From: Mesodorylaimus sp. YZB2_4 | Taxonomy: Eukaryota > Nematoda > Enoplea > Dorylaimida > Dorylaimidae | Length of the DNA stretch: 64,000 bases | Reading direction: 5' to 3' | Assembly (NCBI GenBank): GCA_030248295.1 | Contig: JASANH010001573.1 | Coordinates: 1-64,000 of the forward strand | Shown here: positions 15,416 to 63,447 of the stretch, piece by piece | Layout: every line of letters starts with the position of its first letter | Numbering within the stretch: the stretch's first letter is position 1 | Translations under genes and position numbers: made by a program | The notes under the pieces: model-generated | The model's input: only the letters and a program-made list of their open reading frames with translations | The model's database searches: none | Told to the model about the DNA's origin: nothing

Positions 15416-21253
<5,838 letters not shown>

Positions 21254-26456: not shown

Positions 26457-29400
26457 TTACTCAGGGTCCTCCTCCCACTTTAAACCACTTCCATCACCTT
26501 CTTCCATTTCTGCAGGCCCTGGTTCATCTTGGTCTTCACCCTCGCCAAATTCTTTCTCCATCGTTTCGTCGTCATCCTCACTTTCCCCCTTTATCTCAGC
26601 AAACTCCTCATCGGAATCCTCTGCATTGAAAGTTGAGCCGAACCTCGATATTTTATCTCTCAGCACATCTTTGATGTTTTTTTGGAACCTGGCGGTATTC
26701 TTTTGGATTCGACTTGGATCATCTGCTCGTTTGCTGGGGGCTTCGGTTCCGACCCAATAGCAGTAAGGAGCCCTGCCTCGTTCGTCGATGACGCGTGCCA
26801 GAAGGTGAGGAATATAACTGTAACTTTTGGCCATCTTGAAGAATTGAGTGGTCCAGTCGACAGTTCGTTTCAGCCATTTCCCTCGGACTTGAGGTTTCGC
26901 TGTTTTTTCATTTCGACGTATCTCTCTGTGCACACTGTCATTTTGATCAAAGGCTGCTAATATCTTCCTGAAAGAAATATTTCTGGTGAAAAAGGTGCAA
27001 AGATTTGTTTCACACAAAAATCAGTAAGGAATATCCCTCTTCAGAACTTGGAAACAGGGCAGGGCAGTACCTGATTAGCGTAGATTCGAAGGAAAAATGG
27101 AAACGTTTGTTGGTATACATGAGCGCCAAAGCATTCCAGTTTTCCAGCCGGCCAGTGTGTCTAGGAAGCAAAAATTTCAGTAGACCTTTCTTTTCTTGAA
27201 AACCTTGACTTTGATAAGCCTACCTAAAATTCAGATAATACGGAATATCGTTTTGCAGATTCTTGTCATTGATCACGCGTTCAATCGCTTTATAAGCTGG
27301 GCTATCGGCTTTCAAAGAACGAGGTTGTTTTTTCTCCTCGTTTTCATCAAGCCCATGGTGGCAAGCACCCTCAGGCCAACGATGTATTCCTAAAATAGCA
27401 AGTGATCCGATATAACACGGGCGACAGTAGATTTGGACTATACCTCGGATATGATACAAAAAACCAATCCAGAGTTCCTGAAAAGCAAACTTTTATTCAC
27501 ATGAGTATGTGCTGCAGAACACGAGACCAGAGCACTGCACTCCATGTTTCCTACCGGTCCCAAATGCCGACAGCAAAATACTTTTACCTTAAATTTGTCG
27601 TCCTTGCCATCGCATTCTTTACTGCAGTAAAACCAATGATTCTTGACGTGCCTGATCCATTTAAGAAAGACTGCCCTGTCTCCATCCTTTCCAAGTTTAG
27701 CCTGAAAAGCAGCCGATATGATAATCAAATTGCCTGACCTAATAACTCCAACTATATTGTCAGAGAAAATATTCCTTTTTAAGTTCTGCGCTGAGTTTTT
27801 AGCATACTTGCCTTTGCTATATGATCAAAGTGTCTCACATGTATGCCTTTTTTAAATATCTATTTGATAAGCAAACAAAAATGACCGGGTTTTTTTGAGC
27901 AAATAAGTTCACTTACCTTGCACAGCTCCTTCCCCATGTTTTTTGCCTGAAATCACAAAGGAAACGTGACACGTGAACGTGAACAAAGAGCTAACGTGAC
28001 AAGAATATTGTCAGTCCGGGGTGCTTACCTTGTGCCACACGTCCAATTGATGGGTTGCCTGTTCGCACGCTTCCAACATCTGATAGAAATCATTTTCCTT
28101 AACATCTTCAAATTGTTGTAACGATCGCTTCGCCTTTTTCAAAAACAGCTGGGGATCCCTCTTTGCTAGTTCTGAAAGTTGGCAAGGGTGTGAGGTATAG
28201 ATGGAAGGCTATAGCGAGAATGTGCCTTGGATGGGAAAGATCAGGATGGCATGAGAATATGTTTGGGCTAGGCTGGAATAGTATGCCAATCTGGTCCAAG
28301 CACTTGACGGTGCAGCATTGTGAACATGAGGGGTATTCGAGCAAAGATTTGCTTTTGCTCTCTGAGTACTCCTATCAAATGAATAGCCAGCCTCTCCTGA
28401 TGTTGTTCTGTAACTTACTCATAATCGATTTTATGGAACCATGGCCGTCTGTTACAATTTCGTCCAGTTCGATGCCTAGCGAGGCTAGGGACCACACCGA
28501 TCGCAGAAATCCGGCTAGTTCCATATTTGCTAAAAATATGGTGTTTATCAAGCTGGCGTTAGGTCTTCCATATCACTTCCTACTCCTGGAAAGCTCTGCA
28601 GTAGTGGTGTATGTTGCAAACTAACCTTCTCTCAATAGCTCTTACATAACTGGCTACGTAGTAAGCAATGATTGTGGCATAGTTAGCACCGTAACTACCA
28701 ATAACTATGCGCAACATAAACATGTCCCACAAATTTCCTTGCTAGCTCCCCAAATAAGTAGTTGATGATGTGGCAGCATGCGTGAAAGTGATGCTAATAA
28801 AAAATTAGACAGAATACTTCAGTCTAAGAATGCATAATTGAACTTACACGAATTAAAGTTCGTATGACGCTGATCGATCAAGTTTATTGAAATTATGTAT
28901 CTAAAAAGTTATTAAAATATGCATCGTCACAGAGAAGAACCTGGCAAAAAACTTACGCAGTGTCTTGCCATTCTTTTTTCCCCTTTTCCGTTTCTTTGCC
29001 TGTCGCCACGATCATCTGAGCGTAAGTGCAATTCAATGCTGCAGTGCCTGGAGTGTCGAATGAACCTAAAAAATAAGAAGCTTTAGCATTGGTGCAGAAT
29101 TATGCATCTGTGGTGCTAATAACGTAGGTACAGGATATGCACATCAGACATGGTAGCACAGGTGAAGTGTGATAATTGCTCCAGATCATAGAGTTAGTCG
29201 TGTCTGCTAGTCAGCCTAATGTAGTCTGTGTGGCACGGCCCTGGTGCCTAGCACACTGGGTAGCAGAGTACGGCAATGTGTTGGGGGTCTGCAGGTGATG
29301 GAGGACGGCTTGTAGAAAGCCATTACCGCTGATAATGAGACGCTTGCTGTGGACAGACAGACACCGAATACTGACCCATTAAGTACCATGCAGCTTAGAG

Positions 29401-31463
29401 CCCATCCGCGGAGTGCGGCGTGTAGCCTCGGACGCAGTAACGTGAACGCTCTGATTGGGTCCCTCAGAGGAAATCTTCCCCGAGGCAAGCCTGCATGATC
29501 TCGTTCACTTACCATCAGCGGCAGTGACGACAGAGAGTTTATTGTCCCTGAGTGTCTGGGCAATCATATTCTGTTCCTCATTCCAGCACCTTTGGACCAC
29601 TGGTGCCAGGACGCACCTTTGAATTCGTGCGTGCGAAACGTCGTTGGGTGTGCGCAAGTTAAGAGCTTTGAAAAAGAATTGTATCTTGTTCCAGTTGTTG
29701 CCAGAGACAACCACGCAAGCTGGTAACAGGACGTTGATGGTACAATAGACGGAGCGACTTTCAGTCTGATGTTGCAATCTGCGCGATGACCACCAAATCT
29801 TCTTGTGCCCATTCCGACACTGAATGGTCATTTTTAAAGCTCCACCTTCTCTCTAAAATTATAGAATCAAATAAACTGGGGCATCTGCTGATGTACATAT
29901 AAGCAAGGTCCAGCTGTGAGGAGAAATCAATTTTTTCCCGCAAGTTTTAATTTGAATTTTTATGAAAAGGTCTTTTCTCGCATTTAAAAAAGCTCTTCTT
30001 TGTAATAAGCACTAGATAAGGGCACTTATTAGTGGCGATTCATCGCTTTCTGCCTCTATCGTCTGACAAATAAGGCAGACATTGAGTACATACAGTACAG
30101 GGGCCCGAGAGTTGCCCCATCCCTGTCTGTTCCCGTAGCTGCAAGTGGATGATAGCACCAGCCTCCGCATGTAGTGACACATGATCTACAGCGCCCTTGA
30201 CAGCTCAGTGCGCGGGACAAGGCGACTTACGAGAAACTTGATATTATCCAGGTCATTTGATTCTTCGCAGTCTTTACAATAGCATTTTGGAGAGACCAGC
30301 TGTTTGAGTTGACTTAATTCGACAATCCATCGGCTGTCTTTTACGATGTCTTATTACGCGCTTATTAAATTTGCGCACTCTTCCTGTACCTTATCATTCT
30401 TTTCTTTTTTCTGCATCTTTCTCTCGGCTTGTGACGGTTTAGGCAAAAGGGCGACAGTGCCTTCTGACCACTGCTTGTAATAGCCTTCAGGGAGCAGTCG
30501 GATCGAATCGGAAAAGTCCAATGGTACTTTTTCCTTGGCTTTCTGTTTTACCAGCTTTTCCTTCCAGTCAGGTACGTATTCATGTTGAGGCTTGGGATCC
30601 TCGAATATGAGGCCAGCACAGCTGTGCAAGCTGGAAAATTTTCTCATTGAACGTGGTGCTGCGTTGGCTTGAGGCTGCGCTTGGGGTTTTTTACTGCTAG
30701 CTTTCCTCTTTCTTGGTCGCTTCGCTGAAAAAAGGATTTGATTCAAAAACAGTAATTATAAGCGGAAAATTACGGAATCGCTCTAAGCTGGCCCAAGACT
30801 ACAACTAATAACGATAGCAGCTTTTTAATCAAGTGAAATATACTTGTCTCGCACTCCGCACAGTATGAATGGGGGAGGGGCAGGTCAGAAAATGTGCAGC
30901 CTTGGTCAGCGAGGTACACATACCTGCTGTATCCTTTTTTGGCGTTTCCAGTCGTCGCTTTCCTGAATTTGACTTACTGTAATTGCACAAGAGACAGAGG
31001 CGGATGACAGGAGAGCCATACCTAGGTTCGCTCTGCATTGGTCACAAGTTCCCTGTGTGATCGGTTCGGCTCGATCACTGCTTGTCAGCCCAGTGTTATC
31101 GGCAATTCGACAGCGTTTGGATGGTGGGGGAAAGGCTCCGTCGTCACCTGCACGCGATTTATTAGTCAGGTCTGGATGAGTTTCAGCTAAATCCATAAGA
31201 ACACTAATTCGATCCAAGTCACTTGACGGTTCGCCATATTTCGCAAAGAATTCTTCAAAGCGCCGTTTCGATTCGACTAATATACGAACTCTCAACACGG
31301 TCCTTTCGCCGACTTTTTTTGGTCGACCCTTCCCCCTTTTCTGCGGAGTTGTTGTTGGTTCCTCTCGAACGATCACTACTTGCGGGCCAGTGTCTTCTTC
31401 TTGTTTGGGCGAGTTTGGGGATAAAAGGTCAGTGGAGGATGGCGGTTCCAACTTGGTTTCCAT
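26457..31463 (-). pseudogene. Kolobok-like transposase-derived gene, copy A (tandem in-frame stops)
   Basis: Fourteen exons: 31463-31022, 30962-30924, 30724-30231, 29852-29513, 29065-28957, 28900-28848, 28529-28419, 28171-28029, 27946-27917, 27701-27588, 27477-27444, 27389-27224, 27160-27071, 26967-26457. All join in phase. Exon 1 has an AT-hook-like KRGKGRPKK. Exons 4-13 give the RNase-H fold core in the order GHKKIWWSS, SFDTPG, VTDGHGSIKS, HQLDVWHK, HTGRLENWN. Exon 14 ends in an acidic tail. Exon 3 carries TAATAA in frame (30351-30356) just before DIVKDSRW, where the paralogs have one Leu or Met codon. Everything else is open. It could be a young pseudogene, a stop-containing allele, or a truncated N-terminal protein. 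Candidate catalytic residues D, D and E are retained. Family assignment is from motif order, not a search. Confidence 0.75.
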
Positions 31464-32820
31464 TCTGTGTATCGAACTAATCAGCAACGAAATTCACTGA
31501 CCAGACCTGCGCCGACCTGCAATACCCGCAACGATCTCAGACTATTTCTTACTAATTGGGCTGCAACTTACTGCACTATGCGAATTGTGAGTAATTCTAT
31601 AACGGCATCTTGAATCTATAGTTTGCAGATTTTTGGTTGGAGTACAATTTACTAGAGAAGCTAGTTATTAATATTGGCCGTAATTAGCATGCCCATCGCT
31701 TTCTTTCCAGGGAACAGCAATATACATTGCAAGCGTAAAATAGAGTTTCAGCTAAGGAGCGTACTGTACCTAGAAGCTCCATCTGTGACAGTGAACGGCT
31801 TATGGCTAATTCAGTTCTGATTATATATTCACAGCCGATTCAAAATTTTTGAGGTCTTCTTGCTTAAATGTTAAGTGCATTTCAGCTGGGTCTAACTCAA
31901 CTATAATGAGCAGAGCGCACGTATTCATGGTGAGAAACTCATAGAAGAGAAAGACTCGTACGAGCAAGCATGTGGTCATGGAATGCCATCGGCCACTCGT
32001 GAGTAAGACTAGCTAGATAGATAGCATGGCTTTTACTGCTGCAGCATACAGTAAGTCTCGGTTTTTGGTGTTTCGATAATTACAGCTACTTTTTTTCTTT
32101 TCTTTACAAAATTTTTGTGGTCAGAAATTTTATCCCGTTTTGCTTATAGCAAGCCAGCAGTCAAACCTAAGCAATTCTGTGCGGGAACCAGCTCGCACAG
32201 CAGCCTCCCCTTGCTTGTCTCCATTAGGAGCACCTCCACGCGAGGGCATCCAGGACTTGGATATCTACTTCCTCGGACAATGGCGGGCGGGTGGGCTTTG
32301 AGCCCTGATGGTGTCCAATACACGAAACGGTCTACTCGTTTGGATTCCGTCTCTCCACTTCAAGCAGCCCGACAGTGCCCGGTGAGACACCCACGGCCTG
32401 GCGTGCAAGGTCAGCGAGGGCTTATGATTCGCAAACCGACTTCAGCTGCCTGGGATTGAACACGGGCCGAGTTCAGCCACTCGCTCCCAAGCAACACAGA
32501 GAGACCGAGACCACAGAAGCTAAACGCTGCACCACCGCGGCCGCTACAGCTAATTGAAAGCCTGCTGATTTTGAACTGTGACACTGACTTTATTAAATAC
32601 ACTGTTTAGGCCTTCCTTAGGTCTAACAAGAATTTCTTCCAAGCATCCACGATTTACAGGCATACTTCATATCAATGTATTTAGAGTTTTGGATGGATGT
32701 GTTATCCTGAAATACACGTGACAGTATCACTACTGCACCAGTATTTACAATACCAATACAGACCAGATTCACCAATCCAGACTACAGTATAGGATAATAC
32801 TAATCCAGAGAAATTATCGT
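31464..32820. other. Spacer upstream of copy A with a SINE
   Basis: No gene recognised. It contains a tRNA-derived SINE on the minus strand (32205-32550). The first few hundred bases may hold the copy A promoter, but no motif can be assigned. Confidence 0.45.
32205..32550 (-). repeat. tRNA-derived SINE
   Basis: On the minus strand it opens gcggccgcggtggtgcagcg, continues with a tRNA-like middle and a B-box-like gtgttcaatccc, and runs into a body ending in the shared core cacctccacgcgagggcat. The same head starts the copy at 63948 and a close relative is at 59850-60068. Confidence 0.65.
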
Positions 32821-35800
32821 GCATTCCAGTCGACGGCTCGTTTCAGCTATTTACCTTGGACTCGCGGTTTCGCTGATTTTTTTGTCGACAAATCTCTCTA
32901 TGCACACAGTCATTTTGGTCCATTCCTGCTAATAGCTTCCTAAAAAAAGTCCTGATTGCAGCGGGTTACCACCAAACTACTGGACAATGTGTGCATGCTG
33001 TTGCCGCACAAACACTTCCTACAGAGTGCTTGGCAAGATCAAGCAGAGTAAAGTGGATGAGGCGCGAGACGAGGCCACCCGCATAAGCAAGATGCTAGTT
33101 GGTCAGTTCGGCGCGCCCTATACTTGGTATGACTGACGATGAGACAGTTCTGCGCGCCTTTATCAGAGATGAAAGTCTGAGATGAGCCTTTTCCGCGCTT
33201 TCTCAGTTTCAGTTAACGATTTCTATGAGTCAGCGTCATTTTTCTTTCGCTATCTGAGCTTTTTCTCAAAAATGAATTTCGGACATCCAGAAAAAAGCCA
33301 AGACAAAAATTTTGACCAGCGAAATGATGCGAGTGCGCAACCCGGCATTTCCCGGAACTTTTTATTTGTATCGACGAAATAAGCGATCGCATCAAGTAAA
33401 CGAAATCAAGCATGTGCGGAAAATTGAGCAATGATGAGCACGATGGTGAAACTTTAATCATGCTGACAAATCCCCTGATCAATCATCACGATCAGTGCAG
33501 TATGCAGGCGCGCGGAGCAGACTCAGATCTCTCACGGAACCTTCTCAATATGAGTGTGGCCCCAAGAACAAAGGCCCGCGGGGAACCGTCTCAGAAGTGG
33601 ACATACTGTAGTTGGGCACGCGGAACTGACACACAATCAACAAGATTGGATCTGAAAAGGCGAATTCACATCGGAGACGCACCATCCGACCGAGCCGAGC
33701 AACCGAGCCGACCGAGCCGACCATCCGAGATAGTATGCAATTGACTATGCGTCCAGTGCGTCCTGCGTCTCTTACGTCTCGCGTCTAATGCGTCTTGCGT
33801 CCAGTGCGTCTGGAGCGGCCAGCCGATGCTCTATTCACATTGACTTGCGTCCAGTGCATTTCGCTCGGTTTGCTCGGCTCGGTCGAAGTTGAGAATTTTC
33901 AACTTCTCCAACCGAGCTCACCTGTGCTTGGACTTGCAAATATTGGTATTTTGATCAGTTTTTATTCAACTTTGGCTGGAGATGCGTGGAAGTGAAATTG
34001 TTAATAGAGAGCGAGAAAAACTACATCCCCGCTACCAATGGGGATGCACTGTAATTATGGTTTTGCATGAATTGGGCATATCGCAACCTAAAACTTGCTC
34101 CCGTTCGGGCCTGAGGCGAGCCACGGCTGTACACGGCCACTGTACATACAATATATCAAGATCTAAAAATGTCAAACATTGCCCAAAATGCAAATTCCAC
34201 AAGGGGTGCATGAGCTAAGAATGATTGGGAAGCTCGGGAGAGAGCACTGAATTACCGGAGGTCAGTCTGCTTAAAAAGGACACTTTGGTGCATAGAGATC
34301 CTCTCTGTGTTGAACACTGCAGGAGCGCAGTAAAGGGGAATTTGCTTTATGATTATAGAAAAGATAGTCGACGAAGCTATCGTCGCCAATGGTTAGTCAT
34401 TTAGAATGGTTCAAGACAACGGCTGTTAAAAAAGTTTTTCGCCGGCGGCGGCGGTGGGTGTACAGTATGGTCTCGCTTCTCGCGCGAGGGGGGGGCGATC
34501 TCTCAGACCGAGCCCGCCTTGTTGCAGACAAAATAACGAAGCTCGGTCGGTCAACGCCAATGTGAATGCACCGACCGAGCCACCCGACCGCAATCGGAGC
34601 AAACCGCACGAGCAAACCGAGCTTTTCAATGTGAACATCATGCGGCTCGGTTAGCTCGGTCGTCTCTGCTCGGTTCTTGCGGCGGACGCACCAAACGCAG
34701 CAATGTGAATTCGCCTAAAGACTTCAAATGGTCCCACAAGCAAGGTCCGCTGCTGCTATCCGAATGCTGTTCTATTGCACTACCTGTACCTATGTTTGCA
34801 ATCTAACGAGCAAGTTACACCTGCATTAAATGCCTCTGTGCATAGAGTATCAAGTCCATTTGCCAGCCCCTGGTCGGAACCGAGACGAGACCGAGATCTG
34901 GGTGACTAGTTTCCTATAGTTTGCACGAGAGATTGGCGTGTGTAACCGGCGCACCCAGGCGGCGGGATATATGACAAACCGAAGTCTCTGGGACAAAAAC
35001 TGATTGGAGCAAGTTACAGTACTGTAAGTTGCGACTATGCCCGAAGCGCGGAAACATCAACTGCGAAGTGGTGACGTTTCGCAGCCAGGTATCGATTTCC
35101 CGACCGCCAGGAACTCTGGTTACACACGACTGGTTCCCTGTACCACAGCATCGCTTTTTTATAAAGCCCCTTCTCTATCGCCTGGGCAGGATAGAGTATT
35201 CTAGACGGCCCAACGAGTGTTGGGTCCTGAGGCCTTGGGTCCTGTTAGTTTGACTGGCCTAGTGGTCTTAGCGGAGTAAGCTGCCTTCAATACCAGCATG
35301 CCAACTCACGCCAGCCTACCTGGTCAGCATTGCGTCGAAGGGAAAGTGTATCCGTTTGCTGGCGTACACGAGCGTCAGTGCATTCCATTGCTTTAATTGA
35401 CTTGTATGCCTGAAACATGACCAATCAGAGTCTGGTCCAAAACATTTTTGATTAAGGAACTGACCTGAAGTTGACATAGTAAGGGATGTCATCTTGGAGG
35501 TTCTTGTCCTTCACTACGCGTTCAACTGCTTTGTAAGCCTGACCCTCGGCTTTTAATGGTTGAGGCTGTTTCTTGCTCGTGTCTCCCACTATGACGTCTA
35601 GGTGGGACGCACCACCCGGCCAGCCACGCATTCCCAGTAAAAGGCCAGTAGTGAACTCGCTGGGAAATATTGTTTAATGCATGCAGTACCTTTGATGTAA
35701 CAGAGAAGAGAATGCCCAACCAGAGTTCCTGCAAAAGATGTTCTGAGTCGCATGTAGTGAAAGCTTGCATGCCTACCTTGAACTTGTCCTCCTTGCCATC

Positions 35801-36340
35801 ACACTCCTTGGAACAGTAGAACCATTGATTCTTAATTATCCTGATCCACTTCAAGAAATTCATTCTGCCGCCATCTTTTCCTAGTTTGGCCTGAAAATCC
35901 GAATCTGAACATGAAATTTTGCTTCGCAGAAGTAAGTCACCTTGCACAGATCCTTGCCCATATTTTTTGCCTGAAAATATCGGAGTATATGGTTTATTGA
36001 TCTCAGAAGTTTTTTCCACGAAGTTTACCCTACGCCACACGTCCGATTGGTGCTGTGTCTTTTTGCATGCTTTCAGAATCTGCTCTAAATTTGCCTCTTT
36101 TATGTCTTGAAAACTTTGCAAGGACTCCTTGGCCTTGACAATAAATAGTTGCTCGTCGCTTTTTGCAAATTCCAAAATAAAAAAAATGTGCATATTGAAA
36201 CGCGAGCGCAGTTTTATTGATCAACGCACTCATAATGGACTTGACACTGCCATGGCCGTCCGTCACAATCTCAGCAAGTTCGATGCCCAATGACCACACA
36301 TTCCACATCGATCTTAAAAACCTGCCAGCTCCATGGTAGC
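32821..36340 (-). pseudogene. Kolobok-like transposase-derived gene, copy B (5'-truncated, decayed)
   Basis: Only exons 7-14 of the family plan remain: about 36334-36220, 36174-36034, 35970-35941, 35890-35777, 35728-35690, about 35627-35465, 35409-35320 and a relic at 32939-32821. Exon 7 lacks one base (GCAGGT then TTTTAA), giving a stop right after MELAGF, and its donor is lost. Exon 8 and exon 12 acceptors are mutated. Exon 11 has 39 instead of 34 bases. VWH reads VWR, and the candidate catalytic Glu in exon 13 is Lys (SQLKQWN). Exon 14 has a frameshift and a TGG to TAG change (VQGK, stop, LKRAVDW). A 1.06-kb inverted-repeat element sits between exons 13 and 14. Exons 1-6 were not found. 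Confidence 0.75.
33658..34720. mobile_element. TIR element with aggcgaattcacat ends
   Basis: aggcgaattcacat at about 33658 is repeated as atgtgaattcgcct at about 34706. The same attcacat or atgtgaat core recurs inside (about 33832, 34558, 34628) next to CGAGC/CGACC-rich blocks and repeats of gcgtccagtgcgtc. It is non-coding and lies in the last intron of copy B. Confidence 0.6.
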
Positions 36341-36461
36341 AAAAAAGGGTCAGGTGCGGTCGGGGGAGGGGGAGAGGTAGCCGCCAATGCTTGACCGCAG
36401 CAAATTTTTAAACTTTTAATGACAAAAACACCTCTTCGCTTCTTGCCTTCTCTTCTCTGGC

Positions 36462-36724
36462 CGTTCATTCTCGATACTGAAATTTTGAGTTCATCAGGGC
36501 TCTTATTCCCGACCGGAATGGCATCTGATCCGGATCGGAAAAGTTGGGAGGCGATGGCTCAGCTTGTCAAGGCTTTGATCCGGCTTGCTGGCCGGCAACC
36601 TTGATTGGGAGGCAGCCCTGTTCCGACGGAGGACGGCAGTTTAGTAGCTTGTCGCTGGCTTTGGACGCCTGGCTCCGGGCGACACCCCTGCTACTGTCAA
36701 ATTGCGGACTCCCACCCAGGGAGT
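36462..36724 (-). repeat. Composite repeat, copy 2, SINE-like part
   Basis: In reverse complement this matches 10967-11220 (shared words: ttgacagtagcaggggtgtc, actgccgtcctccgtcgga, agatgccattcc, gggaataag). It is one half of a copy split by the element at 36725-37950. Confidence 0.7.
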
Positions 36725-37950
36725 AGGGGGCCATAAAGGACGTCCACCCTAGGGGGTGAGTGGGGGTCAGAGCAAAGTGGACGGAAGTGGATGGGGGAGG
36801 GGGAGGCTGAAGCCGAATGGACGTCACCTTTACACAATTGGTGGGAGATATCTCGGAAAATTAGCAAAATTATCCTTCGTTAAAAGATAAAACATTACTA
36901 ATATTTTTAAATCGTCAAGCGTCGATACAAAGACTCTTCGTCGGGTGACTAAGATCGATTATATTCCAGTTTTTACCGCGATACTAAGATCGATTACTGC
37001 CGTCGCGCCTCCTGAACTGAACCAGGGCCAAACCGAACCAGACTGAACGAAACCAGGGCCCACCCGCGTGCCTTGTATCATTTCACACTGACTGACGGCA
37101 AAAATAGAAAAGCTTCTAGTGAAAGGACAGTCATAAATTCGGAATCGTGGGTGTCCCTTGATCTTCATTGCAATCGAACAAGCTGTTGAGCTTTGCAACA
37201 ACTTGACTGGTCCATCCTGACTAGCAGCAAGAAAGCTGCGTTTTATTTCGATCCTGATTCAAATATGGTCTGGCCCTGGTTCAGCTGCAAAAGCTGGTTT
37301 GGTTGAACCTGGCAGAGAGGAGGATCGATACTTTCCCCAGTCTCTGCTGTCCACTGGCGGCAGGGTTACATTTATTTGTTCCGTCACTGGGACGCCAGAG
37401 ACAATGCTGACATCGCCAGCATCAACTGACTGATCCGACGCTCGGCGTGGATCCCAATCTCGATGCTGCTGATGCTTCAAGAAATAAGATATAAAGGGGG
37501 TGGCATCTTTGGCGCTACACCCTCACCAACCTGTCTGCCCTCCTGCGAGCCTGTTTTCTCGCTGTCACTGTCTATGCCCACTACGAGACTCAGCAGAACT
37601 AACCTGCACCTAAAGCGGGATTCAATACCAGTTTGCGAGAAAAATGATTATTGATCAATTGTATGCTGTATGTTTGGCATTATTTGCAAGCAGAGAGGGC
37701 GAAAAATTATACGTTGCCAATCCGGCAGATGCAGCAGGCGGATCAGACTGAAGATGAATGCCCATCATTTAGGCGGATTGGTCGATGCTGGGAGAAATGC
37801 TTTTTTAGAATGAATATTGGCAAAGGAGGGGGGCCGCTAAACTGGACTTTTTAGGGGGTGGGGGGTCAAGGCGAAATGGACGGAAGGCGGATAGGGGAGG
37901 GGAGTCAAAAAAACGCGTTTTTTGGTGGACGTCCTTTATGGATGGCCCCT
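36725..37950. mobile_element. Nested TIR element interrupting the composite repeat
   Basis: The left end agggggccataaaggacgtc and the reverse complement of the right end (aggggccatccataaaggac) match, followed on both sides by gtccacc. Outside the element the two flanks align to contiguous sequence at about 10970-10980, giving a direct empty-site comparison. Both ends abut TA. The 1.2-kb interior has no recognised coding region. Confidence 0.65.
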
Positions 37951-38915
37951 AGAGAATTGGGAAACTGTCCTCGAACACCAGTCGGGAAGGTCGCTAAGCT
38001 AAGCCCAAGCCCCTTCTCACCAGTATGCCTTCGTGTGGAGGTGCTCCCAGTGAAGACACAGGGAACCTGCCATGAGAGCTGGTCACCTCCAGGGATAGGT
38101 CGAGATCACCTTTTTTCACGATCGGGATCAGGGCAAGGCCCGATTTTTTTGAGGTTGTACATTGTTTGAACACACTATGAGTCTATTTCCCTCACTAAGG
38201 CACACTTTAGTCATCCAGGTTTCTTTAAGCTTTTATCAGGTCGAGTTTCAGTCATTATGAATAAGCTGAAATTCCTTCGCAGTTTAAGCACATTCGTTGT
38301 GTCGATGCGCGTCCAGCAAGGTCAGCCGAGGCTAAATAAAATCAGTGTTGCTATCATTATCGATTTGAGCCGATGTTGCTGTTGCCCCTTCATCGCTACT
38401 GCGTCATCGCAGATATGATGAATCAGAGTGGACCTACCATTCTTATGCATATCATAATTATTAGCAGAATCCCGATGCCTCAATGTCAGGATCAGGATCG
38501 GGACTGAGAAGCCCACCTATTTCTAGTCCTCACAGCCTCGCTTATCATATCATGACTGCTGGCCAGCTAATATGATTGGAAGTCCAGTGGAGAACTGGGT
38601 CGACGCGGCCCAACCCGCACAACTTTTTAAAAAATTTGGGGAAAAGTTTGTTAGGGCTTTCACAAAAAAATCTGCTCCCTGTATCAAAAAAATGATTTTG
38701 TCTTCGAAGGAGAAGGCACCTTGTCAAGCTCAGGAAAGCATAAGATAAAACATTTCACAAAACTGCGTTTGGAAAAGGGGGGTATGGTTGAAGAGGGCGA
38801 CCATTTTTGAGGGGGGGGGAGGGTTTGCGAGAAGTTGTCGGCATGCGGTCAGGGGGGAGGGGGGTTGAAAAATCGAGATTTTGTGCGGTCGACCTTTATG
38901 GATGGCCCCTTCATA
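37951..38915 (-). repeat. Composite repeat, copy 2, main part
   Basis: This is the reverse complement of about 10025-10975 at high identity over about 900 bases (shared words: gcatgccgacaacttctcgc, caatgtcaggatcaggatcg in the copy orientation, gctatcattatcgatttgag). The outer end is again ggggccatccataaagg. Confidence 0.75.
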
Positions 38916-39241
38916 TACTCTAATTCATACAGGAAATACGCCACATCATCAACATCTCATCGATATCCTCGTGGGCATCTGATTCACAAACACGGATATT
39001 CGCACATTCCGCACTTGTACCACGAAGATGCATGTTATATCTGCAGTGAAATCATGAAAACCTGACATGATTGCCAGCTATTGTTCAAATTTCAAATATC
39101 ACATAGACCCTATACAGCGAGTAAAACAGTATTATGACACGCCATCCAGGCAATGCAAAAAAGGCCATCTGCATACTGTTGTGACTTTTTTCCTGAGAAC
39201 CTGTAAATGCTTCCCGAGTGAATTCACGTGGTTTCCAAACT
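38916..39241. other. Spacer downstream of copy C
   Basis: About 325 bases between the composite repeat and the copy C stop codon. It is AT-rich and nothing recognisable was seen. It probably includes the copy C 3'UTR. Confidence 0.4.
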
Positions 39242-45945: not shown

Positions 45946-46060
45946 AGTAATCTAGATTGAGGATGATCCTAGAATTTATTCGAGAATCCCGCGTTCCCAA
46001 AGCAATAGTTGTTTTTCTTGGATCGTTATCCCACTTTTAAAACTAAAATGCAGTCAACCA

Positions 46061-47366: not shown

Positions 47367-47418
47367 CATTTGACGGTACCGGGTGGCTCTAGGCGACTCA
47401 CCCGGTACCGTCAAATGG
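47366..47418. repeat. Perfect 20-bp-arm hairpin
   Basis: The left arm is ccatttgacggtaccgggtg and the right arm its exact complement, with a 13-base loop. It directly abuts the inverted-repeat unit on its left. Confidence 0.7.
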
Positions 47419-49818: not shown

Positions 49819-52800
49819 TCATTCGAGGTCATCTTCCTCCCAGATTCCACTGTCATCAGGGCCATTGACATCTTCGTCCTCGTATGATTCGTCCAAGCCA
49901 TTGTTCTCCTCTGTCCCCATCTGAACGTCCTCGTCTAACTCATCTTTTTCTTCCACCTCGTCCAACTCCTGTTCAGAATCTTCATCAAAAGCAGCCCCAA
50001 ACCTGGACTTCTTCTTTTTCAGCACATCCTTGAGATGTCGTTGGAATTTGGCGTTGTTTTTTTGAATAAGACGCGGATTGTCAGCGCGCATTTTACGAAC
50101 TTCGTTTCTGCCCCCGAAATCCAATTCAGTTTTGCCACGTTCGTCGATGACGCGTGCCAGCAGATGAGGAATGTAGCTGTAGGTCTTCGGGATCTTGAAA
50201 GTCTGTGCAGTCCAGTCCGCCGCGTGTTTGACCCATTGGCCTTGCACTAACGGTTTAGCTGTACTTGCATTTCGACACACCTCTCTGTGCACTGCGTCGT
50301 TCTGATCTAGTCCCGCTAATAACTTCCTAACAAATATGCGCTATGAAGTTGTATGCTGTGCGGGCACCATAGAGAATTTTGTGAGCGCCTCACAAGCTCG
50401 TGTTAAACAGGCATCTTGAAACTAAATAAAGTATGCAAACCTTCTGAACAGTAAGCATTTCGTACCTCATCAGCATCTGCTCAAACGGAAAGAATACTCG
50501 CTTGCTGGCGTACATGAGCGAAACTGAGTTCCAGCTTTCCAGCTGACCAGTGTGCCTAGAACAGTTCTTATGAGACATAACCTAGTTTTCCTGCTTTCGA
50601 TGGTATTTTATGATCACTAGACCGCTTTTAAGTAGGGTCTTACCTGAAATTTAGGTAGTAAGGGAAGTCCTCTTTCAGGTTCTTGTCCTTCACAACGCGC
50701 TGGACTGCTTTGTAAGCTTCGCTGTCTGGCGCCAGAGGCTGCGGCTGATCCTTGTCTTCTTTTCCCTCTAGGCTGTGGCGGCAGCCCCCGCCCGACCAAC
50801 GGTGCACTCCTGCAAAGGTCGCTTGTATTTGTACATATATTTCAAAGGAGCAACGGAAATTATTGTACCGCGTATATGATGCAAAAGCCCATACCACAGT
50901 TCCTAAACGGCAGAAGAAACATTTGATTGTTTATTCCGCTTTGCAAAAAGTGTCAGATCATGTACCTGAAACACTTGCTCCTTGCCACCGCATTCTTTGC
51001 TGCAGTAGAACCAATGATTCTTGATTTGCCTGACCCATTTCACAAAATTCACCCTGTCGCCTCCTTTTCCTAGTTTTGTCTGAAAAAGTGCTCGTAGCTA
51101 TGACTGAATCCTGCATAAATAAGAGCTCTTACGTGACACAAGTCTTTCCCGATACTGTTCGCCTAAAGTTGAACCCTTGAGCATAAAAACACTTTTGAAT
51201 TGAACAATTTGCATACCTTGTGCCAAATATCCAGCTGGTGCAAAACCTTTCTGCAAAACTGCAAAATATTTTCGTAGTTCTCTTCTGTAATATTACCAAA
51301 ACTTTGCAAAGAGTCTTTGGCCTTCTCCAGGAAAAGCTTGTTGTTTGTCTTTGCCAGTTCTAAAGCGCGAATGTTCTTGCTTTATCGATCCTATAGCTCC
51401 CTCAAATCCAGCGAATAAGGGGGGGCCAAGGTACTTTTAACATCGTACATGACGTGATTTGCTAACTACACTCACGATCAGTGGGTGGGCTCTGTCTCTA
51501 ACGACAGCAGCGAATGATGCTGCGCTGTGCAGAGCGATAGCGATTGCAAGATGTGGACCCCAAGAGGCTTAAAAATTTCAAAATCTGCCGAAACTAGGTT
51601 TATTGCTTGTGTGTGTGCCCCAATTACTGGAACAGTGAAAAAGGTAGAATGAGCAAAGAGCCAGGTGCAAAGAAGCGGAAACTTCGGGAGTCAGACTTAC
51701 GCATTATTGATTTGATGGTAGCGTGGCTGTCGGTTACGACCTCTTCCACATTGATGCCCAGTTCATGCACGGCCAACATAGATCGCAAAAATCCAGCTAT
51801 CTCCATATTCGCTGAAAGTGTCTTTCTCTTTGCGTTTTTCAAAACTCCATAACATAAAATACATGGAAAACTTACGTGACTTCAATCCTGTATGGCGCTT
51901 TTCGGTCAGGTTAATCGAAACAATGTAACTGCAGCATGGAAAATCAGTTGACGTGCACATATATCGTAGAAATCATGTCAAAGAAGGCGAGTATTTACCC
52001 TGTCTTTTCCCAGACCTTCTTTCCTTTCGCATCTTCCTTCCCAGTGGCAACGATCATCTGGGAATATGTACAGTAGCAGGCAGAGTGGCCTGGACTATCA
52101 AACATTCCTGAATATAAATAAGTTATTAGCACAATCGCAGCTTGAGCATTATTTTGTACATTTTCTGCTTATGCTGCTTTTTCCTGTAGATCATCAAAAA
52201 TATTTATTCCATTTCACCTTCCGGACCCCTTCGATTCATCCTCGATCAGTTTCCCAAGGATTTGCTGCACCGTTCGAGCATAAATATTGTACCTATTACC
52301 CTCCCTCTCCTAACGATAAGGCCGCACTGACAGAGAAGAATTTCAAAACTACAGGAAACTGTGATAAACGAGTGGATTCAATATGCCTAAAGGTGTCTGT
52401 CCTTATCGTGGGAATAATCAAACACCTGCTGTGTGGTATATATGTTGGAACTAGACTGAGAGAGCTGTCAAATAGGACACTATCCAGCCCAAGTGTAGCT
52501 GTTCAAGGAAATGGAAGGTAGAGCACAGCGCAGTTTTGATTCACTGTCAGGTCATTGTGCTAGCGAAACTGGTTATGAAGGTAATGTTTAAAGACAAAGC
52601 ACACCGTAGATCTATATCGGGATACAGGTAGAAAAAAAAGAGTCTGATATTCAGATTCAGCACCCACGCATTATATGTTAGCTAAAAATTTTTACCACAA
52701 TCATTATTATTAAAGTCGAAATTTTCGTTTTCCAAGGGTCCCCCTAGGGGATCAAGAACTTCGACTTTTTTTGCATAGGTACTAAATGTCCCGAATTTAG

Positions 52801-55770
52801 GGCCCCCTATAAAACGTGGGTGAGAAATCTGAATATCATCTATTTTCAATATTCAAATCGATTCTAGAGTACTTCATCCTTGAATGGCCGTTCTCTCTTT
52901 TGTTTCTGATGTCATGTCACCACAGTACATCCATGGTTACAATGTTCGGATGTGAGTTATAATTACAGCTACAGTACGAGTATATGTCTGCTTCTAATGC
53001 AGCACCATGTTGACCGCGGCACTTACTGTGCCCAAAAGAAAGGCCGTGTACCTACCATCGGCAGCGGTAATAACAGACAGGTTGTGGTCCCGGAGCGTTT
53101 TGGCGATCATCTGCTGTTCATCGCTCCAGCACTTTTCAATCATGGGCACCAGAATGTTTTTCTGCAGTCGTTCATACGCATTGCCGCTGGTCATGCGCAT
53201 GTTCAAGGTTTTGAAAAAGAACTCTAACTTGCTCCAGTTGCTGCCAGATATAACAGCACTAGCTGGTATGAGAACATTGATGGATGAATATTGAGAGCGA
53301 ACTCGGTTGTTGTGACACAGCCTCCGCGAACTCCACCACACCTTCGTGTGGCCCTGTTGGCAGCGAACAGTCATTTTCAGTGCTGCGCCTTCCCTCTGAA
53401 ACGGAAGGAGGGTCAACCTTGCTGATAATGAATGAAAAGTCTCAGATAACAATATTGACTGGGTAGAATCTGTCGTTTGGGGATCGCGCCCTGGAACACA
53501 GAACTGCATTGCACAAGAACACGAAACTCGAAGTGTAAAGAATACAGACAGAAGTTTCGACCGCCCATGTCAATTATGTAAGAATAATAGTCGTATGATG
53601 CGGTCGCATACCCGTCTGTATTCTTTGTATTTCGGGCATCATGCCCTCAATATAATGCAGTTTATACCCCCAGCTATTCTAGCAAATCCTTGTTTCACAG
53701 AACAGAAATCCAGTAGCGGTCAGCAGTGCGAGATGGAAGAGATATTCTTGCGCCGTGCAGAGGAATAAATAAGCAAATACGCCAGATTCTTGTTTGAAAA
53801 TCAGCAAATATTTATTCGCTTGAAACAACACAATCTCGTCCCCTCACAATGCTGGGATGTTGAGCCGCTAGTTGTCCCGGTGAAAGGCGATCCCCAAAAC
53901 CTGATAGAAAATTGGGAGTCAACTTACGAGAAGCGCGATATTTTGCAAGTCATTGAAAGCCTGGCAGTCGAAATTATAGCACTTTGGCGAGATTAGGTTC
54001 ATGAGTTGACTATATTCGACAATCCACCGACTGTCCTTGACAATGTCCAGTGCACTGATAAAATCGTTTTGGCTCTCTTCGTCCAATTTCTGTCGCTTCT
54101 TCAGACGCAAATTTGCTCTCTCAGTCATGATTTTATCCGAGTCGCGCATGAGACGTGCCACAGCTCCTTCCGACCATTGTTTGTAATAGCCCTCTGGGAG
54201 TAGGCGAATGGAGTCTGACAGGTCCAGCGGAACAGTTTCTTTGGCCTTCTGTTTGGCGAGTTTCTCTTTGTAGTCAGCAACGTGTTCGTGCTGGGGTCTC
54301 GGCTCGTCCAGTAAAAGCCCAGTGCAGCCAGGAGGATCTTTTCTAACTCTTGTTGTTTTATATCGCTGTTCTAAAAGTAGTTTGCTTAAGGAACTTTAAG
54401 TAGTCGAGAATGGTCAGAATAGAGTGGTCTCTCAATGAAGGCTACATCATGCGTTCCCCAAAGACCAGGAGGAACCTCAAATGTACTGTCTGCTTTGCAG
54501 CTGCAGAATCTCTTGGAAACTACGAATACTGCAGCGTACAGCGTGTCAGGCACAAAGGAGTCATTTTTGATACAGATATGTTGCCCAGGAAACTGCGTAG
54601 CTTCACAGACTCGACAAAATTGAGGGGTTCAAGATCAAAATACAGCACTACCGCAGCGAAAAATTTCTGCATCACGTGAGTTGTTGATGGAAATATGGCC
54701 GTCAGCCTACCCCATGTACCTACATCATTTAGCCAATAGTATACTACAGTGCAGCTATGAGCAATCACGACAAAAATGCGCATGCAGATGTTCGTCTGCA
54801 GGGCATCCCAATGCTCTCGATCACAAGAAAATTCAAAGAGCCCACTAGGGAGGCAGCATCTGTATAGCTCCCCAAAGCATGAGTGCTGAGTGTCTGAATC
54901 GCACGTCCATGTAGGATCGGCTTATACTTTCTGTCGGCACCACCACCTAGCTTTGTGGATCAAGAAGGGTATCCGACTTTCTTATTCACACAAGTGGCCG
55001 TCAGGCAATCCCCTGCTGTATACTCTTTGAAAGTGTAAGTCAAGCCTTTGTCGCCAAGGTCTTGCTTGTATACAGAACCGTACTCACATAAGAACCTACT
55101 CCTAGTACACCCTTGCTTCAATCTTCACACCCTTCCATGTTATGGTATGCAGACCCCAGATAACTTATCGCTTCATCTGTCTGGCAAAAGGGAGGCAACC
55201 CACGTTTATTTTTGATCAGCAGACTTACTCGTGGCGCTTTCTGGGTCATCAAAAAGCCGGCGCTTGGCTAGAAACGCAAGTGTTAAAACAAAGTCGATTG
55301 TGCAGATTTAATCCACTACCTGGTCTACCCACGTTTATCTTCTTTTTTACAGGTGTTGTTTCGAGTAATTTAGGTGCGGTATCCAGAATGGGTGAAACGC
55401 AAGGTGGTTCTTCTTGGTAGTCGTCTCCTTGTGGTTCTGTTTTTGGAGTAGACGTCGCCACGGTGGTCTCTTCATAAGGTTCCATCAGATACAAGAGGAC
55501 CTCTCGTCTCGTATTCAATTTTAATCGTTGCTGAATTCTTTCAAACTGTTTCTTTTGATTAGGGTATATTACAACTGTGAACTTGATTAGTTTGATCTCC
55601 TTGGTTTTTCGGCCAGCCTTGTTACCTTTTTTTGGCTGAGCTGGCTTTTTATGTGATGTGGGCGGCTCTTTTTTGGGAGCAACAGTAATAGCTGGTTCGG
55701 AGCATACTTCATATTCGTCTATGATTGATGAAGGACCTTCCTCGTTTAATGCTGATGTTTTTATATCCAT
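49819..55770 (-). CDS. Kolobok-like transposase-derived protein, copy D (intact, 876 aa)
   Basis: Exons 55770-55320, 55267-55229, 54370-53928, 53395-53056, 52107-51999, 51928-51876, 51811-51701, 51359-51217, 51162-51133, 51079-50966, 50902-50869, 50809-50644, 50555-50466 and 50326-49819 join in phase with no stop. Residues about 50-60 are a basic AT-hook-like stretch (KKGNKAGRKTK), then an IYPNQKKQFERIQQRL motif shared with copies A and E. Exon 3 ends with a Cys pair (SPKCYNFDC) that, with RCQQGH in exon 4, may form a zinc site. The RNase-H fold core retains all candidate catalytic residues: FDSPGHSA, VTDSHATIKS, HQLDIWHK, GQLESWNS. The C-terminus is acidic (ending DDSGIWEEDDLE). No inverted repeats or TTAA duplications flank the gene, so domestication is favoured over an active element. 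Confidence 0.85.
52614..52872. mobile_element. MITE in copy D intron 4
   Basis: It shares gtctgatattcagatt, aaagtcgaaat, cttcgacttttt, aaaacgtgggtga and atcgattctagagt with the MITE at 13305-13569. Its left end is more degraded. Confidence 0.6.
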
Positions 55771-56392: not shown

Positions 56393-56727
56393 CTGCACTT
56401 TGGGCTTAATGCGAGAAAATAGAAAGCTGATAGTAAGAGGAACATTCACAATAGCAGAGCACAGCACACGTCTCGAGTTATCACAGCGATTACATACAGT
56501 ATATACAGTAAATGAGCGGCAGATTCACAAAAAGGTTTCCCCAGGTCACGAAAACTCACACAAAAACACACAAACAGCTCATGAAAAACTTGTAATCATG
56601 CTTCTAGTAAACAAAAAATCATATAATCATTCGTAATTAGTTACATTCCTACCGCCTGTCATTAGAAGACACAGAAAACCCGAGCCTTTGCCTAGATTTG
56701 GACACCACCATTATGGTGTCTGTACAT

Positions 56728-56790
56728 GTGGATAGTGTGCTGGACTGGTAACCCAGAGGCGCGGGTTCGATTCCCGCTGAGGGTTTTCTG
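56728..56790 (+). repeat. tRNA-like segment (SINE head, Thr-like anticodon loop)
   Basis: ctggactggtaacccag folds as an anticodon arm with loop CTGGTAA (anticodon GGT), and gcgggttcgattcccgc folds as a perfect T arm. The 5' half gives only a poor D arm and the ends do not pair into an acceptor stem. A tRNA-derived SINE is more likely than a tRNA-Thr gene. Confidence 0.45.
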
Positions 56791-56846
56791 ACTATTACTA
56801 CATCGAATTTTAAATATGATTGACAAATGATTTGCAGTCGGCTAAA

Positions 56847-59800
56847 TCAATCGTAGTCGTCTTCATCATAGATGCCGCTGTCGTCTGGAGCAGTAATTCC
56901 CAAATCATCTTCTTCATCCGATTCGTTTCTGATTTCCGAATATTTTTTTACCTGAGAAGGGCAATTGGTCCTATCCGCTTCCTCCTCCATCTCCTCATCC
57001 ACTTCTTCTACGTCCTCTATTTTCTCTTCTTCTTCTTCGTAAGAGGTAGAACCAAATCTTGTAGTTCTATCCTTCAGGATATCTTTTAGATTCTTTTGGA
57101 ATCTGGCGATGTTTGGTTGGATTCGACTCGGATCGTCCGGACGTTTTTCAGCTGGTTTATTTCGCCTGTCAAACACACACTTGATTTTACCGCGTTCGTC
57201 GATGATTCGAGCCAGAAGATGGGGTATGTAGCTGTAGGATTTCTCAATCTTCGTCAACGTGGCTGACCAGTCAGCAGATTGTCGTCGCCACCGACCCTTC
57301 AGCACAGGCTTGGCTGTGGACGCATTTCGCTCAACTTCTCTGTGCACACTGTCATTTTGATCCAGTCCCGCCAAGAACTTTCTATAAAGCGCAAAACTTT
57401 GGGTGTCATAGTTCGTGTAGTGCAGTTTAATTTTCAGACATTGAAGCCATCTCTCGCCTGGAAACCAGAAAACTCAAAGTCCTTACCTTATCAGCATACC
57501 AGTAAATGGGAAATAGATTCTTTTGCTGGCGTACATCAGGGACAGAGAATTCCAATTCTCCAGCTGGCTGGTGTGCCTGCAACGAACGTTGGCATCTGCT
57601 TTATATTCCTTGTTCTATAGCTTCGGGACTGAATCTTGAAGGGATTATCTCAATTAATGAATGATTTAGCTCACATCTTGACCATGATTCGTGCGATATC
57701 CTTTCAGAATCGCTTCTGGTTTCGATATTTTAATGTCCTTGTCAGTAGACCCCGGATCGGGTGGGGTCGGGTCCCTTTTTTGATAGATCGGGTGGAGCAG
57801 TAATAATCCCCTTGACCACCAATTCGCGTTACATTCCATTCCTTCATCAGTGCCAGTGGATATCAATATTTACAGTAGCAGTCACCTTTCCAACAAAGTA
57901 ACCACATGTTATGAGGATTCATGCAAGGTTTTTATCCAAGGAACTTCAGCTGCTTATAACAAATTCGGGTCAATGACTTTCGGGATGGGTCGGGCCAGGT
58001 TGACTCGACCTACGCGTTAAACCAGACCTGATCCGGTGTCTACTTGTCAGTCAGAAAGGACGGGGCCTGTCTCATGGGTACTCAAAAGTACAGTATAGCT
58101 TTGCCACTCGAGCATGCTGGAACTCACCGAAAATGCAGATAGTAATGAAAATCGTCTTCCAAGCTTTTGTCGGTCACCACTTGCTTCACAGCATTGTATG
58201 CTTCGCTGTCTACCTTCAATGAACGTGGTTTTGACTTGCTATTTTCGACATCGCTTGCATGCTCGCATGCACCACCCGACCACCGATGCACACCTGAATA
58301 GAAAATCTTGCCTTAGAAAAGACCTCTGAGCAGTTTCAGAACTGATCGTAGTTTTGATTATGCCTTTATCCCGATTCTGAAATTTATAGTCACCCACGCA
58401 ATCAGAATGTCAACGTCTCAGAAGCTTGCTCCTGCATCAGGCGAGAAGGCACGCCCTGATCTGAAAATTAAAAAAACTGATTTGCGCAGCCGTTTTTGCC
58501 CCTTTTCCTTAATTTAAGACTAATTTTAAGTCCACTTTACAGAGCTGAGTCGCCAATGACTTGTTTACCTTGTATGTGGTGTAGAAGGCCGAACCAGAGG
58601 TCCTAAAAAAACGAAGACATTTATCGCCTTTTCATACTGCTTACAGCGAGCACCGCGATTCTTAGGTTTTCACTACCCTGTTAACTGTGAAAGTCCTGTT
58701 TCGGTTCAGATTTTTCTGCTTCTCCCACGTAAGCAGATACTAAAAATAGAGAGCCGAGCTTTATAGAAATAAAGCACTTACTCTGAAGCGGTTTTCTTTA
58801 CCACCGCACTCCTTGCTGCAGTAGAACCAGTGATTCTTGATGGATCTGACCCACTTTAGGTAATTCATTCTGTCACCACCTTTCCCCAGCTTCATCTAGA
58901 TAAATTGGACGTAGAGAAATTTGCTTTGACATCAGGATTCCCAGTCTACCTTGCACAAATCCTTGCCTATGCTCTTTGCCTAAAACAATAGCTGCTGTCT
59001 TGGAAAAACTAACAAGCAGGTTACGATTTTTAGAGCCTTTCTTCACCCTGTGCCAAACATCCAATTGATGCAGAGTGTTTTTGCAGGCTTTCAAGATCTG
59101 TTCAAAATTTTCCTTCTTCATGTCGTCGAAATATTGCAAAGAATCTTCTGCTTTTTCCATGAACGACTTGCGATCTCTCCTCGCTAGTTCTGAAACAATG
59201 CACGTGCATTGCGTGACCAGGGAGGGACCCTGTGTGTGCGTACGCATAAGGGACTTGATCGTGCCGTGCCCATCGGTCACTACCTCGTCCAGCTCGATGC
59301 CCAACGAGCTCATGGACCACATTGATCGCAGAAATCCAGCCAGTTCCATCTTCGCTGAAATGTGATTTCAAGGATGATCATTTTGCACATTTCATATTCG
59401 ATATTGTGCGTCGAGGCATGTGACACACTCGAGCTCAAAATCAAAACGATTCTGACTGTCTGCCTAAGCAGAAATAATAAGAAATGCCCAAATATTCTTA
59501 CGTGAATTAAACTTTGTGTGGCGTTGTTCGATCAAATTTATCGCAACGACGTATCTGTAATTCACCGAATTTGGCTTGATCACACAAGAGCAGCCAAACG
59601 TAAGCACATCTATACCCTGTGTTTTCCCAGACTTTCTTTCCATTATCAGCGTCCTTGCCAGTGGCCACAATCATTTGGGTGTAGGTGCAGTACGAGGCTG
59701 AGTGGCCAGGACTGTCGAACATGCCTGAAAATAGAACGACTTTCTGAGCTTAACTAGAGTACGTGCAGTCATATCAAAACACTAAGGTCACACAATACTA

Positions 59801-61620: not shown

Positions 61621-62912
61621 TTTGCTGATGGTCAATTTGCTTACGCAAGTTTGAAATCTGTCTTGAAGCAAATTGTGAGAGCTCCTAGACTGGAGGACCA
61701 CCTTTCCAGTTTGATATGCACAGTACTGATAAGGGCCTGGTTGCAGACCCAAAACAGCCAGCCAAACAGTCGGCTGAATGGCCACTGGTCACAACAAAGA
61801 GAGCCGCACAGCAGCCAGGATTATGAACTGTAAAATGTAGTTTCAGATGTACTGAGTGAATGACTGATTGTGATGATATCTTCCTTTGAATGAGAAATTG
61901 GTGCTGAGGTGTTTTGCGTAAAAGGCGCATTCATTGCATGACAGCATTGTGATTGGCACCTTGGGCAGGCCTAAAACAGAAGTGAGACCCCCCCCTAATT
62001 CTTTCGAAAAAATGATGAGAAGCACTCTGGCATCTGCAGCTCACTAGTCATCTAAGTACTATATGGTAGAAATCTGGAGTCATTTAAAGTACGCTCTTTG
62101 TCTTTGTTAAAAAGCATTTACAGGATGGTTCCCGTGGTAAGACGGGGACAATTGCGTAGCAGGGCATATACCGTAAGAGCTTACTTTCAATAGGCCTGAC
62201 CAGGCTTGTTGCTATGGGCAGCATATTGCTATGTTGCTACGGACTCTAAATGTACAACCTGGCAAAAAAATCATCCAAATAACAGGTCAGACGCAGGAAA
62301 AATATTCTGGTACACTAGAAAACCGCACACTCATTCAATCCATACTCCCTGTACCCATAAACGTCTCGCATCCTTCGAGTTCATGTAATTGCTAGTACTG
62401 TACTGATGGTGAGTAAAGTATGAATGAATGGACCGAACACAAAACACCGCATGAAACACAGATCAGGCAGGATGAGGGAGTCCTTACAGAAAAAGAAATT
62501 GGTGCAACCATAAAAAGGCGAAAACCATATGTACCTACTCTGGTGGGTGTTACACGAAGGAGTCTGAGGCGTCATTGCACTATTTTCCATCGCACAAAAA
62601 AGCACCTAATAACCAGATAAAACCAGATAAAAAAAGCACACCCCCCCCCCCAGATTACGCAATGACCTACCACAATGCTGAGAGCAGAAACAAGCTTATG
62701 GGTTAAAAATTGTGTGAGGACCAGTGGTCAGAAAAGAATACAAAGTTACACAATGCCTCTGTCAGACGTGCAATACGACAATGAATTTAAACGTCAAGAA
62801 TAATAGAAACAATTTTAAAATATAACGTAACTCTAACTTTGCATGGAGTGGAGTAATTTTGCAGCACAAAGGTAACGCATTCAGAAAAACATGAAAACAA
62901 AAAATGGCAGAA
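61621..62912. other. Spacer between copies E and F
   Basis: AT-rich with a C run at about 62641-62651. No gene or long repeat was recognised. A ggccactggtcacaac at about 61777 and ccagtggtcag near 62722 resemble the palindrome in the 46061-47366 repeats. Confidence 0.4.
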
Positions 62913-63447
62913 TCAATAAGTGTCATCTTCATCCCAGATACCACTGTCATTTGGGGCAGTCTTTTTAATAGCATCTTCCTCATCTGATTTGTTTCCTTTT
63001 TCTGAATCATTATTGTCCTGAGATTTAAAGTTGGCCTCCTCCTCCTCCCACTCCTCCTCCTCATCATCATCATCCTCTTCCTCTTCAACCTCTTCTTCGC
63101 AGAAAGTAGAACCAAACCTGGAAGTTCTACTTGTATCTTTCAGAATATCTTTAAGGCTCTTTTGGAACTTCGCGATATTTGGTTGGATTCGAGTTGGATC
63201 ATCTGGTCTCTTTTCACTTGGTTCACCTCTCCCTCCGAACATGAACTTGGTTTTGCCACGTTCATCGATGATTCGAGCCAACATGTGAGGTATATAGCTG
63301 TACGATTTCGGAGTTTTTAAGACCCTTGCATTCCAATCAACCGCTCCTCGTCGCCACCGACCATAAACACTAGGCTTGGCTGTGGTTGCATTCCGCACAG
63401 CTTCTCTGTGCACACTGTCATTCTGATCCAGTCCCGCCAACAGCTTT
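62913..63447 (-). CDS. Kolobok-like transposase-derived protein, copy F (last exon only)
   Basis: A terminal exon of 535 bases (same length as copy E exon 14) follows an attttgcag acceptor and reads KLLAGLDQNDSVHREAVRN, then SYSYIPHMLARIIDERGK, and ends in a long Glu/Asp tail closing SGIWDEDDTY. It is most like copy E. No exon 13 (HTxQLExWN) was found between 63450 and 64000. The upstream exons therefore lie beyond the window, or the copy is truncated by the repeats that follow. Confidence 0.7.

Follow-up and report, generated by a model that had tools for sequence, protein, structure and literature searches.

The Kolobok superfamily of transposons, ascribed to Kapitonov and Jurka 2007 and reported from nematodes, is set apart from piggyBac by TTAA target duplications together with 5'-RR..YY-3' termini, and the signature residues of its transposase run in the order D, D, C/DxxH, zinc finger, E (PMC9587614). 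A THAP domain is usually carried as well (PMC6004289). New nuclear enzymes can arise by the co-option of transposases. One detailed study of Kolobok co-option concerns frogs, where the XKol genes of Xenopus are described as transposase-derived, as arranged partly in tandem pairs, and in some cases as apparently domesticated (PMC6004289). Here we describe a head-to-tail array of intron-rich genes that, judging from their sequences, descend from a Kolobok transposase and probably form an old co-opted gene cluster. The array lies largely in the first 64,000 bases (the window) of contig JASANH010001573.1 (103,376 bp, called C302 below) of the nematode Mesodorylaimus sp. YZB2_4, whose assembly comprises 145 Mb in 1067 contigs. 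XKol genes, as described, are single long reading frames that mostly include a THAP domain, whereas the array genes have 14 exons and gave no THAP match where scanned. The catalytic DDE (Asp, Asp, Glu) residues are kept by all five long copies of the array, compared with 24 of 38 XKol genes in X. tropicalis and 7 of 24 in X. laevis (PMC6004289). An earlier first-pass annotation of the window had claimed that no family of this kind was described; in view of the tandem, apparently domesticated Kolobok genes reported from Xenopus this was too strong, though those genes are not intron-rich (PMC6004289). An intron-rich Kolobok gene array did not appear among the matches listed (titles and abstract openings) on Kolobok domestication, on Kolobok, nematodes and introns taken together, on domesticated transposases in nematode DNA elimination, or on intron gain and tandem arrangement in domesticated transposases (15 of 611 listed). 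Nothing was found that joins Kolobok with the name of the Pfam family PF20700, Mutator-like transposase.

An all-against-all comparison of open frames showed repeated coding segments on the minus strand from 26.4 kb to the end of the window. These belong to six head-to-tail units, the long copies A, C, D, E and F plus relic B, placed as follows.

26457-31463, minus strand: copy A, with 14 exons, of which exon 1 starts at 31463, exon 2 spans 30962-30924 and the last spans 26967-26457
32820-32938, minus strand: a fragment of exon 14, the last, belonging to relic B
35319-36320, minus strand: relic B, exons 7-13
39242-45526, minus strand: copy C, open across exons 2-14
49819-55770, minus strand: copy D, 14 exons with an open frame of 876 codons
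56847-61620, minus strand: copy E, 14 exons
62910-63447, minus strand: last exon of copy F, the remainder lying outside the window up to C302:70757

Only its last exon places F inside the window, and the other exons were read from the contig's next 30 kb. Similarity between copies is far above chance, with exon 4 of copy E matching A, C, D and F at E-values of 4e-44 to 3e-53. Exon edges were placed by copy-to-copy comparison; a copy has as many as 14 short exons, with splice positions common to the copies. In A, C, D and E every modelled intron runs from GT to AG (13 introns in D and in E), and exon 2 has the same length, 39 nucleotides (nt), in all four. In the models of F one acceptor (exon 3) lacks AG, and the edges of exons 2 and 3 are unsettled, exon 2 being modelled at 64 nt where 39 are expected. 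The 14-exon architecture and the order of conserved motifs proposed in the first-pass annotation are both borne out, the former in D and E and the latter in the proteins compared, among which that of A was without its exon 2. Its tandem, same-strand array at 26457-63447 stands too, but the count of six copies and one relic does not: there are six units, of which five are long and one is relic B. A search of C302:70.8-94 kb with the exons of E and with exon 1 of both A and D found no seventh unit at an E-value below 0.05; the search for further copies ended at 94 kb, with 94-103 kb of C302 unread.

The ancestry of the array can be read through intronless relatives resident in the same genome. 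A profile of the array aligned collinearly with one built from C533-, C512- and C260-type intronless proteins at an hhalign probability of 99.9% (E-value 5e-33, 431 columns, 27% identity). All three aligned intronless frames, of 526, 560 and 604 amino acids, match PF20700 at an E-value of 0.01 or better, two of them (L029 and L062) above the cut-off, and a genome search with PF20700 returned 12 matches over the cut-off, four of which reach it only jointly with in-frame neighbours. Direct matches to PF20700 are shared by the intronless homologues but are absent from the array proteins scanned (D whole, exons 4-14 of E). Inverted repeats of about 212 bp (arms 98% identical) and about 229 bp (97%) are found at C278 and C286, respectively, and a 61-bp stretch pairs between the ends of C260, which puts its inverted repeats at 61 bp or more. 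C286 and C260, both with 5'-AG..CT-3' ends, are bounded by TTAA-AGGTATCG and CGATACCT-TTAA; because the flanks differ between the two, the insertions are independent of each other. In C278 the right end has TTAA, and the left end a form shorter by one base. The array shares with Kolobok transposons the order D, D, DxxH, zinc finger, E, and its resident mobile homologues share their TTAA and 5'-RR..YY-3' ends, whereas the array genes themselves differ in having 13 introns (D, E), no terminal inverted repeats (TIRs) or target duplications found, no THAP domain found, and, relative to the intronless proteins, about 30 extra residues between TDxH and DxWH. By sequence, the array genes are very probably descendants of a Kolobok transposase, an assignment made through the resident relatives and published traits; the Kolobok-type DDE ancestry given in the first-pass annotation is upheld by the profile alignment, the signature residues, the relatives with TTAA and TIRs, and PF20700 in those relatives.

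piggyBac (PF13843), a first guess for the array, was discarded; it has 69 matches in the genome, none of them on C302. Intronless elements with AGGTATCGTT ends occur at L059 1101-5706, L060 286-4817 and L061 ~2506-5427; these are Kolobok-type transposons in the same genome, and L060 and L061 have TTAA at either side. On C405, two copies of an intronless relative, 97% identical, stand in opposite orientations near 57.3 kb (L047) and 19.6 kb (L048).

Copy D is the only copy demonstrably open over all 14 exons. The elements of the catalytic core fall in the following exons of this copy.

53056-53395, minus strand: exon 4, the C..GHxKxWWSS segment and predicted first catalytic Asp, D424
51701-51811, minus strand: exon 7, VTDxH with predicted second catalytic Asp, D506
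51217-51359, minus strand: exon 8, about 30 residues without counterpart in the intronless relatives, then DxWH (D559/H562)
50966-51079, minus strand: exon 10, NHWFYCSKEC with the first two Cys of the zinc finger
50466-50555, minus strand: exon 13, HTxxLExWN with predicted catalytic Glu, E684

In the alignment D, D, DxxH, zinc finger and E are all kept in each of the five long copies, and a putative zinc finger between DxxH and E has the equivalents of C599, C603, C632 and H634 in every one of them. Relic B lacks four positions, namely the His of DxxH, one finger Cys, the finger His and the catalytic Glu. The Asp of FDSPG was ruled out as catalytic. It is Ser in copy C and absent from the intronless relatives, while the Asp four residues before it is kept wherever covered; because of this difference in conservation, the catalytic Asp was set at the upstream residue. 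With a complete active site, the protein could still act on DNA.

Outside the core, the last 90 residues contain 31-33 D+E against 11-12 K+R in all five long copies, in agreement with the acidic C-terminus of the first-pass annotation. The AT-hook N-terminus proposed alongside it holds for A and E, where a clear GRP core sits in basic context; the signal is weak in D and missing from F. A ribbon-helix-helix N-terminus, suggested by a weak Pfam match to RHH_9 (E-value 0.071, in one of five pieces) and by pattern reading, is not established. The description of these genes as THAP-associated is not supported, as no THAP match was found in D, exons 4-14 of E, or intronless L029, the proteins that the scan covered. 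A direct Pfam search with D whole and exons 4-14 of E gave nothing significant, a sequence search of PDB with a profile of four copies gave no chain at an E-value below 0.8 (the best being Importin-9, at 0.88), and a scan of IMG/VR gave no relative.

Divergence among the long copies was estimated by the Nei-Gojobori method on exons 4-14, omitting exon 11 in pairs that involve F. Nonsynonymous divergence (dN) is 0.15-0.33 among the ten pairs, and its ratio to synonymous divergence (dS) is 0.11-0.21 in the six pairs for which it could be computed, which points to purifying selection. dS is moderate in a single pair, E-F (0.71), whose dN/dS is 0.21. One tract differs from the rest of this pair.

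58795-59362, minus strand: exons 7-10 of copy E with introns, conversion-like tract relative to F

It looks like gene conversion because E and F are 86% identical here over 580 nt, introns included, versus 73-79% in the other six E/F matches. As to the state of the frames, exon 3 of copy A has two adjacent in-frame stops (TAATAA), exon 3 of copy E a 1-nt frameshift, and exon 11 of copy F a 1-nt frameshift; some of the 1-nt lesions may be errors of the assembly.

Relatives of the array are widely scattered. A genome search with copy E, in which 83 of 298 candidates were scored, gave at least 137 matches at exon level. At least 111 of them fall on other contigs than C302, where they form at least 50 clusters on at least 43 contigs and include both intron-rich and intronless forms. 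In a tree of concatenated exons, in which the rows for C567, B, C759 and C320 are short (181-237 residues), copies A-F are separated from 15 dispersed intron-rich loci by a split that has 1.000 support. The split is retained when four intronless proteins are added, and those attach on the dispersed side. This placement of the array copies supports the tandem duplication proposed at first pass. The 15 dispersed loci have intron-size gaps at many array junctions (splice sites unchecked), C450 and C320 being without the gap at exons 13/14. The idea that intron 10 is a derived trait setting the array apart was dropped because its polarity is unclear, C551-type loci being without intron 10 and C699 apparently without intron 11. 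Key positions, where covered, are mostly kept at the dispersed loci, with exceptions at C250, C551, C378, C420 and C772; losses at covered positions include the second D in C250, the D of DxxH in C551 and the H of DxxH in C378. The near-identical pairs C45/C699, C320/C450, C420/C378 and C512/C70 may be uncollapsed alleles.

The ends of these genes were inspected in the array and at dispersed loci. Between the 2.5-kb flanks of the five long copies, no exact-word inverted pair exceeded the longest of 50 shuffles; the longest pairs were 11-12 nt (none for E), and controls had a mean of about 9 nt with maxima of 13-15. The statement that the copies have no obvious terminal repeats is therefore sustained for exact words around the long copies, in a test that may miss diverged TIRs and whose flanks overlap neighbouring copies. 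Clean transposon insertion of the dispersed intron-rich copies was tested at C551, C567, C250, C772 and C759 and is unsupported. A repeat of about 230-280 bp occurs at C551 32322-32590, C759 ~8942-9187 and L043 ~490-766; in two dispersed copies it sits within an intron, and it also adjoins a third.

We moderately favour the reading that the array is an intron-rich, host-resident gene cluster derived from a Kolobok transposase, multiplied in tandem, with later copy loss and local conversion, and used by the host. Of the domestication claimed in the first-pass annotation, the low dN/dS and the lack of detected flanking TIRs speak in favour; disabling lesions in three of the five long copies are among the reasons why domestication is not directly shown, and the family is not confined to the array, with relatives on at least 43 other contigs. 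The observations that weigh against our reading are several. Stops or frameshifts disable A, E and F, and exon 1 of copy C was looked for and not found. dS is infinite (saturated) in four of the ten pairs and 1.7-2.6 in five more; E and F have no synonymous change in exon 7, and their exon 1 is hardly constrained (proportion of nonsynonymous differences, pN, 0.48). Part of the signal could stem from purifying selection before the duplications, or within a transposon lineage that was active. In the tree, the branches inside the array are poorly supported apart from E-F (0.996), and the array grouping requires a root on the dispersed side. Finally, intron-rich relatives are scattered, and internal deletions along with identities of about 86-99% among some of them point to recent rearranged duplication. 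Such relatives, together with the complete catalytic sites of all five long copies and a TTAA in one of eight block-end stretches inspected (C759, 5' side), would suit a still-selfish intron-rich Kolobok lineage, mobile now or recently and with decayed ends, whose array arose by local insertion or element duplication. We think this unlikely: no TIRs were found at the array copies in the exact-word search, the array copies cluster together in one orientation, and the shared-block ends at C551, C567, C250 and C759 look irregular, with one that falls within a coding region. TTAA is absent from the other seven stretches, and in the eighth the break falls inside a short repeat that is also in C551 and C854.

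The lesions in A, E and F, relic B and the missing exon 1 of C are also what would be seen if a functional ancestor had given rise to a dying cluster, now mostly pseudogenes whose low dN/dS is inherited. Such an outcome strikes us as rather improbable, as the frame of D stays open for 876 codons and that of C from exon 2 to exon 14, and E and F have a dN/dS of 0.21 with a single lesion in each across the modelled exons; the one-base lesions may partly be due to assembly. Descent from a different C/DxxH superfamily, Mutator-like (MULE) or P-like, might be suggested by the name of PF20700, Mutator-like transposase; the relatives, however, have TTAA duplications and 5'-RR..YY-3' termini, which like the finger between DxxH and E are Kolobok traits as described in PMC9587614, and we hold such descent to be highly improbable.

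If the array is a host-resident cluster as favoured here, its founder gene would have come from a TTAA-inserting Kolobok transposase and would have been intron-rich before duplication. It would then have been duplicated in tandem and kept by selection. Some copies would later have been lost and gene conversion would have acted locally, and the cluster would now be partly decaying. The protein would enter the nucleus, bind DNA by way of a basic N-terminus that resembles a ribbon-helix-helix or an AT-hook, as well as by the Cys/His segment before the core, and use its complete DDE site to cut or join DNA for the host and not for its own movement. Most likely, as far as sequence can tell, the genes encode a DNA-binding protein that may still cut or join DNA in the service of the host. 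That the array encodes host-run, catalytically competent Kolobok-derived enzymes making programmed DNA breaks, e.g. in DNA elimination, is a far-fetched idea, with which complete active sites, low dN/dS and residency are compatible and to which no observation is specific. The machinery that makes the breaks in animal programmed DNA elimination is described as largely unknown (PMC9894435). A 14-exon cluster with a different N-terminus, a fully kept active site and relatives in the same genome that have TTAA and TIRs would allow the passage from transposase to multi-exon host gene to be traced, and would offer a way to learn if the enzyme still cuts DNA.

Several other features accompany the array. 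One repeat is present as an inverted pair at 36274-38924 and 9898-11432, the former where relic B is broken on its 5' side. Upstream of copy C is an element-like unit (46060-47369) with 82-bp inverted repeats, 98% complementary. Between D and E, a weak tRNA-like match to RF00005 (56724-56777, plus strand, 30.2 bits, E-value 0.028) is perhaps a tRNA-derived repeat. Neither an SL1 RNA match nor the exact SL1 22-mer was found in the genome, and 133 matches to Col_cuticle_N, the cuticle-collagen N-domain, regarded as specific to nematodes, were; this suggests a nematode without canonical SL1. Open frames near the array include one with DnaJ plus a CSL zinc finger (11419-12057, minus strand), one with a FLYWCH zinc finger (13751-14641, minus strand), and a TPR/HAT-repeat segment, possibly of a splicing factor (17673-17957, plus strand).

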